NCBI GenBank assembly: GCA_014728225.1
Contig: WJLX01000141.1
Location: 1 to 36,517 of the forward strand
DNA: 36,517 nucleotides
Direction of reading: 5' to 3'
DNA from: Candidatus Coatesbacteria bacterium
GTDB taxonomy: Bacteria > RBG-13-66-14
The first letter of the stretch is position 1. The number at the start of each line of letters is the position of its first letter. The notes beneath the pieces are model-generated. The model ran no database searches and was not told the DNA's origin. It saw only the letters and a program-made list of their open reading frames with translations. Position numbers and translations under genes: made by a program. Positions 8,611-36,352 of the stretch are shown here, in pieces.

Positions 8611-8670
8611 TGAAAGCTGCGCTCGGTTGACAACTGCTTGACCAAGCGGCCTCGCGGTTCGAGGCGCGAA

Positions 8671-8858
8671 CCTTTGAAAAACAGCCTCGCCCGGCTTCAA
8701 CCGCGCCCGCCAGCCGCGCGAGCCGGAACTGGCACGGTTTTTGCAGCTCCGGACCCGTCCGGACGTTTAGCGGCACAGGATTGCGCAAAAACCGTGCCAG
8801 TTCCGGCGGCTTGGGCTGTTGTCAGGTGTTATCGAATACGGGGGCTGTTTTTCAAAGG
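8671..8858. repeat. Nested inverted-repeat element, copy 2
   Basis: The outer arms CCTTTGAAAAACAGCC (8671-8686) and GGCTGTTTTTCAAAGG (8843-8858) are perfectly complementary. The inner arms 8722-8744 and 8785-8807 are perfectly complementary over 23 nt (GCCGGAACTGGCACGG... ending TTTTTGC) around a 40-nt loop that itself contains CCGGAC/GTCCGG. It lies between tRNA-Ser(TGA) and the terminator at 8585-8610. Confidence 0.9.
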
Positions 8859-9271
8859 TCCGCCCGAATGCTGGTAAGAGAAGCCGCGGAAGTCGCTGAA
8901 GCCGTTTTGGGATAGGCGCTCGGTAAGCACCTGGTGGCCGCGGTCTGGATCGTTCGCTGATACGGCGAGAGTTGACACCGGCTCGCTGATAACACTCAGC
9001 CCCGGCGGGGGGCTTGGGGTGATGTTGGGTCCGTTTGTCTCCGCGGTTACTTTTTATGCTTGCTCCCCGGAGATATTCCAGTACTTGTTGTGGTGGGGGC
9101 TGTTACAACCTGCGCCGAAAACCACGTTACCACGTAGTTGATAAACGTGCATTGCTCTTCAGGCTCTTCAGAACAATCCAGCCCCGGAAGCAGCTCAGCT
9201 CCGGTGATCAAGCCGTCTTGGTGGTGAAGCGGCCCCGGAAGCAGCTCAGCCCCGGAAAAACTCAGCCCCGG
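8859..9271. other. Gene-free spacer between inverted-repeat copy 2 and tRNA-Ser(TGA)
   Basis: No credible gene or RNA is seen. The part next to the tRNA holds a 19-nt exact direct repeat GCCCCGGAAGCAGCTCAGC (9181-9199 and 9232-9250) and further CTCAGCCCCGG units near 8996 and 9261. On the minus strand these would be in the 3' trailer of the tRNA-Ser(TGA) transcript. Confidence 0.6.
9181..9250. repeat. 19-nt direct repeat pair
   Basis: GCCCCGGAAGCAGCTCAGC occurs at 9181-9199 and 9232-9250, a period of 51 nt, each followed by a (C/T)CCGG. A third partial unit (CTCAGCCCCGG) directly abuts the tRNA. Two copies are too few for a CRISPR array. Confidence 0.8.
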
Positions 9272-14591: not shown

Positions 14592-14626
14592 GATGGCTCC
14601 CCGTTGAGGAAGGTGTTCGGTGGCGC

Positions 14627-14806
14627 CGCCGGAAAAACAGCCTCCGGGGGCGTCGATAAGCGACCGCCACCGCCGGAACCGGCACGGTTTTTGCATCTCG
14701 GCGCCCGTTCGAACGATGATAACGGGTCGCCTCCGCAAGAACCGTGCCGGTTCCGGCGGTGGCGGTTTTTGGCGGTCGGTCGAGGAGGGAGGCTGTTTTT
14801 CCGGCG
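14627..14806. repeat. Nested inverted-repeat element, copy 3 (in the adk leader)
   Basis: The outer arms CGCCGGAAAAACAGCCTCC (14627-14645) and 14788-14806 are perfectly complementary over 19 nt. The inner arms 14664-14694 and 14735-14765 match over 31 nt with one mismatch, around a 40-nt loop (14695-14734) whose GGCG, CCCGTT, AACGGG and CGCC blocks can form an inner hairpin. The loop closely resembles copies 4 and 5. The element ends 36 nt upstream of the adk start. Confidence 0.9.
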
Positions 14807-15228
14807 GGAGCGGATCGGGGTCGCCGGCGGACGATCCGGGTGATGCTATTCTGGTGCGCTCCAGCACCTTTTGCGAGGGGCTGTTCTGCTTGTTGATTGT
14901 TGGCGCGGCGGCGGCGGATTTATCGCGCCGGCCCGCCAGCGGCCCGGGACCAGCCCAATCAAGGCGTAGGGCTTGAATTTCTCACCCCCACGAACCTGTC
15001 CCGCTAATCCTGTCCCCCAGTCCAGTCCCCTGTCCTGCCCAATCAAGTCCTTGCTTCGGTCTCCATTCCAGCTTAAAACGGGGTCCCCAGTCCGGTTCTT
15101 GATCATGAACCGCGGACCCGTTCCAATCCAGCCCCCAATCCAGCCCCCCAATCCAGCCCCTTTGGGGAAGCGGACCGTGGCGACGGGGCCGACGGTCCGC
15201 GGGAGTGCGACGGGGCCCGTTGGCGGAG
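14807..15228. other. Gene-free spacer between secY and inverted-repeat copy 3
   Basis: There is no credible gene in these 422 nt. The plus strand is C-rich with many CCCAGTCCAGTCCCC-like runs (about 14988-15165), so the transcribed minus strand is G-rich. A tandem AATCCAGCCCC(C) unit is annotated separately. GGGGCTGTTCTGC near 14876 resembles a solitary outer arm of the inverted-repeat family. Confidence 0.6.
15125..15160. repeat. Three tandem AATCCAGCCCCC units (G-rich on the transcribed strand)
   Basis: Units at 15125-15136, 15137-15149 and 15150-15160 differ only in the number of C residues. Read on the minus strand they give successive GGGG runs separated by CTGGATT, a potential G-quadruplex. 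They are followed on the plus side by TTTGGGG, which can pair with CCCC. Confidence 0.8.
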
Positions 15229-32100: not shown

Positions 32101-32295
32101 CGCCCCCGCGAAAAATAGCATCCCTTGACCAAACGGTTCACCAGCGCCCGTACCGCCGGAACCGGCACGGTTTTTGCGGAGGCGGACCGTTAGCTTCCGT
32201 CGCAACGATCGCCGAGATGCAAAAACCGTGCCGGTTCCGGCGGCGGACGCTTCCAGCGGGGTGCGTAACGGGCGGGGCTGTTTTTCGCGGGGGCG
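32101..32295. repeat. Nested inverted-repeat element, copy 4 (between divergent str operon and GT-C/TPR gene)
   Basis: The outer arms CGCCCCCGCGAAAAA (32101-32115) and TTTTTCGCGGGGGCG (32281-32295) are perfect; they continue as TAGC against GCTG, where the single mismatch becomes a U-G wobble in RNA. The inner arms 32153-32177 and 32219-32243 are perfect over 25 nt around a 41-nt loop. The loop is the reverse complement of the copy 3/5 type, so this copy is inverted relative to them. Confidence 0.9.
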
Positions 32296-36106: not shown

Positions 36107-36335
36107 GCGGACCTTTGACAAACAGCCTGTTTACTTATATGGGCTGGGGCCTTGAATCGGAGTTTCGACACTAGTCGAAACGCCGTCGCTACGAAGCAGC
36201 GCAGGCACAGGTTTTTGCATCTCGGCGACCGTTCAAGCTAATGATAACGGTCCGCCTCCGCAAAAACCCTGCCGGTTCCGGCGCCGCGGACTCGGGCGAC
36301 GTCGCCGGTCGTTTGGACGCTTTTTCAAAGATCCG
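36107..36335. repeat. Nested inverted-repeat element, copy 5 (degenerate)
   Basis: The left outer arm CGGACCTTTGACAAACAGCC (ending 36126) pairs imperfectly with the right arm around 36315-36335 (CTTTTTCAAAGATCCG). The inner arm is reduced to GGTTTTTGC/GCAAAAACC plus an imperfect GGCA/TGCC extension. The loop (about 36218-36259) is well preserved and matches copy 3: ATCTCGGCG, ACCGTT, AATGATAACGGT and CGCCTCC. The left inter-arm segment is about 40 nt longer than in other copies. Confidence 0.8.
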
Positions 36336-36352
36336 CTGCTTACGCAGTACGG

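Follow-up and report, generated by a model that had tools for sequence, protein, structure and literature searches.

The hairpin at positions 14,695 to 14,734 of the window (the whole stretch analysed, 36,517 nucleotides, contig 141 of the 2.96-Mb genome of a Candidatus Coatesbacteria bacterium, here G000) may well form the apex of a nested, non-coding palindrome some 180 bp long, which multiplied separately in two Coatesbacteria genera or more and whose arms are kept complementary by rewriting at the DNA level; this reading is held with middling confidence. One arm would repeatedly be rewritten from the other, so that the two stay complementary. The simplest route would be template switching by the polymerase at the hairpin during replication, an event that would also invert the loop. 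Base-pair "covariation", in the inner stem too, would then come chiefly from DNA copying and would not be the signature of a functional RNA.

From the outside in, the element has outer inverted repeats some 20 bp long, a spacer of about 25–50 nt, core arms of 20–30 bp (23 bp or more) and a loop, mostly of 40–42 nt, that contains an inner stem of 10 bp. The outer repeat differs from copy to copy and is identical at both ends of one copy, and the spacer sequence appears unrelated between copies. The window holds five copies of this larger palindrome. Copy 3, on the forward strand, runs from its copy-specific left outer repeat CCGCCGGAAAAACAGCCTCC (14626–14645) through the extended left core arm (14663–14694; 32 nt, with 97% complementarity to its right-hand counterpart), the left side of the inner stem GGCGCCCGTT (14700–14709), its right side AACGGG-T-CGCC (14721–14731) and the extended right core arm (14735–14766), which carries the sole wobble cell (T·G) among the core arms, to the right outer repeat GGAGGCTGTTTTTCCGGCGG (14788–14807). 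Copies 1 (1440–1628, core 1493–1574) and 2 (8666–8863, core 8725–8804), both forward, are without an inner stem of the copy-3 type. Copy 4 (32101–32295, core 32158–32238) lies on the reverse strand with its loop reversed, and copy 5 (36107–36337, forward) is decayed, with mismatches in its core arms and outer repeat. The loops are as an earlier note on this DNA read them: GGCG-CCCGTT...AACGGG-T-CGCC in copy 3 (14700–14731, forward), GGCG-ACCGTT...AACGGT-C-CGCC in copy 5 (about 36219–36259, forward) and, as the reverse complement within 32158–32238, GGCG-ATCGTT...AACGGT-C-CGCC in copy 4, where the T·G wobble is present. Between the element and secY, positions 15000–15180 are occupied by a tract of near-repeated ccaatccagcccc-like units.

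The arm CCGGAACCGGCACGGTTTTTGC, searched with at most three mismatches, matched the genome 286 times forward and 267 times in reverse, corresponding to about 276 copies; the reversed-pattern control gave no match in the same genome. Most counts for this genome come from stretches totalling about 0.81 Mb, 27% of its length, with home-made gene calls and one MAG per genus. This sample contains 117 full arm pairs belonging to two families, and 98 copies of the main family were oriented by the asymmetric loop ATCTC...CCTCC. The closest SecY relatives are Candidatus Coatesbacteria MAGs at 84% and 79% identity, other phyla reaching at most 64%. The exact 20-mer arm was not found in other GTDB r220 genomes, nor was the arm-plus-loop pattern in IMG/VR; among 60 relatives, sequence of the own type gave weak matches in G001 and G005 only. 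At least 18 contig ends fall within an element (for example L308–L311, L313–L320, L322, L325, L326, L003, L052 and L098), and assembly trouble is the usual consequence of long palindromes. The element itself is unlikely to be an assembly artefact, because a second MAG has the identical architecture. Contig ends screened for loop inversion within the population gave no support for it, and the clearest one-locus pair of ends, C26/C133, which shares an outer repeat, has the same loop orientation. The end of C21 and the start of C49 have the same copy-specific outer repeat with a one-base difference in the inner stem.

In the 23-bp core arms, 2250 of 2254 cells are Watson–Crick, with 84 alternative Watson–Crick cells, one G·T and no A·C; the cells that are not Watson–Crick are the T·G of copy 3 and three from a single copy with an indel. 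In an alignment of 39 copies every pair of the arm helix is kept (100%) and none varies on one side only, and slid controls of the whole structure drop to 28–45% paired. Arm positions 20–22, unused in detection, are likewise perfect, with two-sided changes in 10 cases at position 21 and 24 at position 22. The copies do not look like recent duplicates, since they have little sequence in common outside the conserved islands, and mismatched intermediates are nonetheless absent. The outer ends are matched in a similar fashion: the median score is 19 for the two ends of one copy against 8 for ends from other copies. With GAAAA as the sole anchor, the two ends of a copy agree at 323 of 330 adjacent positions, the match fading to background about 13–15 nt further out. 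A loose consensus of the outer ends, CGGCGACCTTTGAAAAACAGCC, can be written, the actual letters being copy-specific.

In the sister genus (G001) some 210 copies (215 forward and 203 reverse matches) carry arms of the sequence TTGGCACGTTTCTTGC, both arms having changed together. These copies also have copy-specific outer repeats, and their spacers, unrelated in sequence, fall into two length clusters near 33 and 45 nt. A conserved mismatch just outside the arms (C·T in 15, A·G in 15) marks flank orientation. In the 25 scorable copies the loop and the flanks are oriented independently of each other (6/7/6/6; 12 against 13), and the loop must therefore have flipped many times relative to the flanks. 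Insertions are lineage-specific on synteny comparison, because sites occupied in one lineage are empty in another: among 39 syntenic junctions, two hold an element only in G000, four only in G001, one in both and 32 in neither, and the secY–adk gap, occupied in the own genome, holds no element in two relatives (L117, L118). The sole shared site of this sample (L115:5974–6074 in G001, L106:13953–14032 in G000) is possibly ancestral; its G001 copy is the only one seen there with arms of the own-genus type.

Template switching is reported to make the arms of inverted repeats alike and to turn round the stretch that separates them (PMC8604942), and also to produce multibase compensatory changes in hairpins (PMC8794818). 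The element resembles such hairpins in its homogenised two-sided arms, found in the own genome, in its multibase changes without intermediates, and in the inversion of the inter-arm segment, which was scored in the sister genus. Published cases are single hairpins in RNA genes and in yeast coding DNA (PMC8794818; PMC8604942), whereas the element is present in hundreds of dispersed copies with fully randomised loop orientation. Homogenised arms, inverted loops and absent intermediates fit template switching or hairpin-based mobility better than a selected RNA. Against arm rewriting stands the conserved mismatch that the sister genus retains beside its arms, which indiscriminate correction should erase. 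Because template switching leaves this mismatch, the conserved spacer lengths and the spread of the element unexplained, a protein specific to the element, or selection, is probably at work too, and the sister-genus spacer clusters, alike in length and unrelated in sequence, suggest the same. More tentatively, the elements may be bacterial mobile palindromes of a new class, each copy having its own matched ends and an invertible loop, being spread and kept symmetric by hairpin copying (replicative template switching or an enzyme), and carrying genus-specific arms that were amplified separately in Coatesbacteria.

Another explanation, which is rather unlikely, is a transposition or recombination system of the element's own, whose hypothetical enzyme would act on the hairpin or the inverted arms, copy one end from the other, and flip the loop when moving or recombining. 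In its favour are arms that differ by genus, amplification that took place separately, and sites particular to one lineage, and it would suit the conserved islands and spacer lengths as well as the occurrence of the outer motif only with the core, save for one exception beside the decayed copy 5. However, Y1 (RAYT-type) transposase (PF01797) has no match in the own genome while the control genomes match, no RVT_1 reverse transcriptase was found in G000 or G001, and the search for tyrosine recombinases gave only two. Direct target-site duplications of 2–8 nt show no excess over shuffled partners, with element ends that are known inexactly, and the 0.81 Mb read contains no autonomous copy or parent transposon with the same ends. 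Very short segments are moreover hard to invert as double-stranded DNA, and the loop is such a segment.

The inner hairpin is the loosely kept core of the 180-base palindrome. Its paired structure is real and covaries above chance: of the 920 cells in 92 oriented copies, 780 (85%) are Watson–Crick against 725 ± 4.7 (79%) in shuffles, and in 39 aligned copies 91.8% of this helix is paired, compared with 100% of the arm helix around it. The earlier note had read a change from C-G to A-T beside GGCG, with pairing kept, together with the wobble, as favouring an RNA acting in one sense, had proposed aligning all copies for covariation, and had named changes without pairing as contrary evidence. The compensatory change stands in the three window copies and is rare over the 92, in which this pair is A-T in 60, C·T in 17, G·T in 6, C-G in 3, A·G in 3, C·C in 2 and G-C in 1; most changes break the pair, and it is unpaired in 22 copies, the very outcome that the note had said would count against its reading. 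Selection on a single RNA strand is expected to favour G·U. In the loop orientation G·T occurs 23 times and A·C 16 times, both below the 33 and 30 expected from column make-up, and no wobble signature favours either strand. The alignment thus bears out covariation above chance in the inner stem but no preference of G·T over A·C.

A structured RNA acting in one sense, its pairs kept by selection on the RNA, is improbable. It would account for covariation of the inner stem and arms above shuffles and slid controls and for a very stable predicted fold (z −12.7), but the DNA fold is equally exceptional (z −11.9). Besides the missing G·U preference and the frequent breaking of the stressed pair, the evidence against it comes from the sister genus, where no consistent inner hairpin is seen by eye and the loop is randomly oriented relative to the flanks, and from sites that are mostly unshared between genera. 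The element reaches the gathering score of no Rfam family, on which ground a known RNA family was rejected, and long-hairpin miRNA models remain far under their cut-offs.

Gene context bears on the same question. In the own-genome sample the element is strictly intergenic. Of 54 copies between tandem genes, 38 have the loop, in the orientation that the earlier note took as sense, antisense to the neighbouring genes (uncorrected p = 0.004), a bias in which gene direction, GC skew and replication direction are confounded; an orientation bias as such favours a structured RNA, but this one runs against the proposed sense. The element may have an RNA role in addition, but nothing found requires one: a terminator-like hairpin already sits between gene and element at 33 of 90 gene 3′ ends and both orientations occur. 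Bidirectional transcription terminators or mRNA 3′-end stabilisers, which the intergenic location, the runs of A and of T within the outer arms and a slightly commoner placement in convergent-gene gaps (19 of 84 copies against 32 of 186 element-free gaps) would suit, are very improbable given the 11 of 84 copies between divergent genes, the hairpins already ahead of the element and the mostly unshared sites.

Several known systems share features with the element. Bacterial MITEs and ERIC-like repeats, as outlined in PMC10969869 and PMC2229807, are similarly short, non-coding, intergenic and high in copy number, with terminal inverted repeats and lineage-specific sites; unlike theirs, the terminal repeats here are copy-specific rather than family-wide, and neither a target-site duplication nor a parent transposase was found. 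REP/BIME sequences with RAYT, in the accounts given by PMC2817692 and PMC3733652, likewise comprise more than 100 extragenic palindromes per genome. REP/RAYT identity was rejected, as those palindromes measure 20–40 bp against a nested element of about 180 bp in a genome without Y1 transposase, and so was a reverse-transcription origin, on the missing RVT_1 in both genomes. The selfish palindromes and double-hairpin elements of mitochondria, for example in Volvox as sketched in PMC2670323, are also dispersed, apparently selfish, non-coding DNA, a likeness drawn without sequence comparison, whereas the element belongs to a bacterial chromosome and has a nested build.

A second, related family is built on a conserved core, CGGTTnTTGC/GCAAnAACC, which encloses an apical hairpin of about 11–14 bp, different in almost all copies; a base that is paired and copy-specific goes with mismatches that are fixed. 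Orientation counts for this family were set aside, its pattern matching in either direction. The family often lies between convergent genes; examples are L084:6632–6694, L089:15473–15535 and L099:12250–12309 in the own genome and L198–L203 in the sister genus. A relative of this core, GGCGCTGTCACGGTTTTTGC...GCAAAAACGCGTGCCAGCGCC, with longer loops, is found in another genus (L206–L209 in G003, L211–L213 in G005).

Within a phylum that has been little studied, the element is a very abundant repeat, for which searches for Y1 transposase and reverse transcriptase returned no mobility enzyme. Compensatory stem changes are usually taken as proof of a functional RNA. With arms rewritten at the DNA level, as preferred here, the hundreds of palindromes in two genera, whose stems change on both sides with no intermediates and whose loops are inverted at random, look as would be expected if DNA copying alone yielded "covariation". 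They form a natural test set for whether covariation tests can separate RNA selection from template switching.
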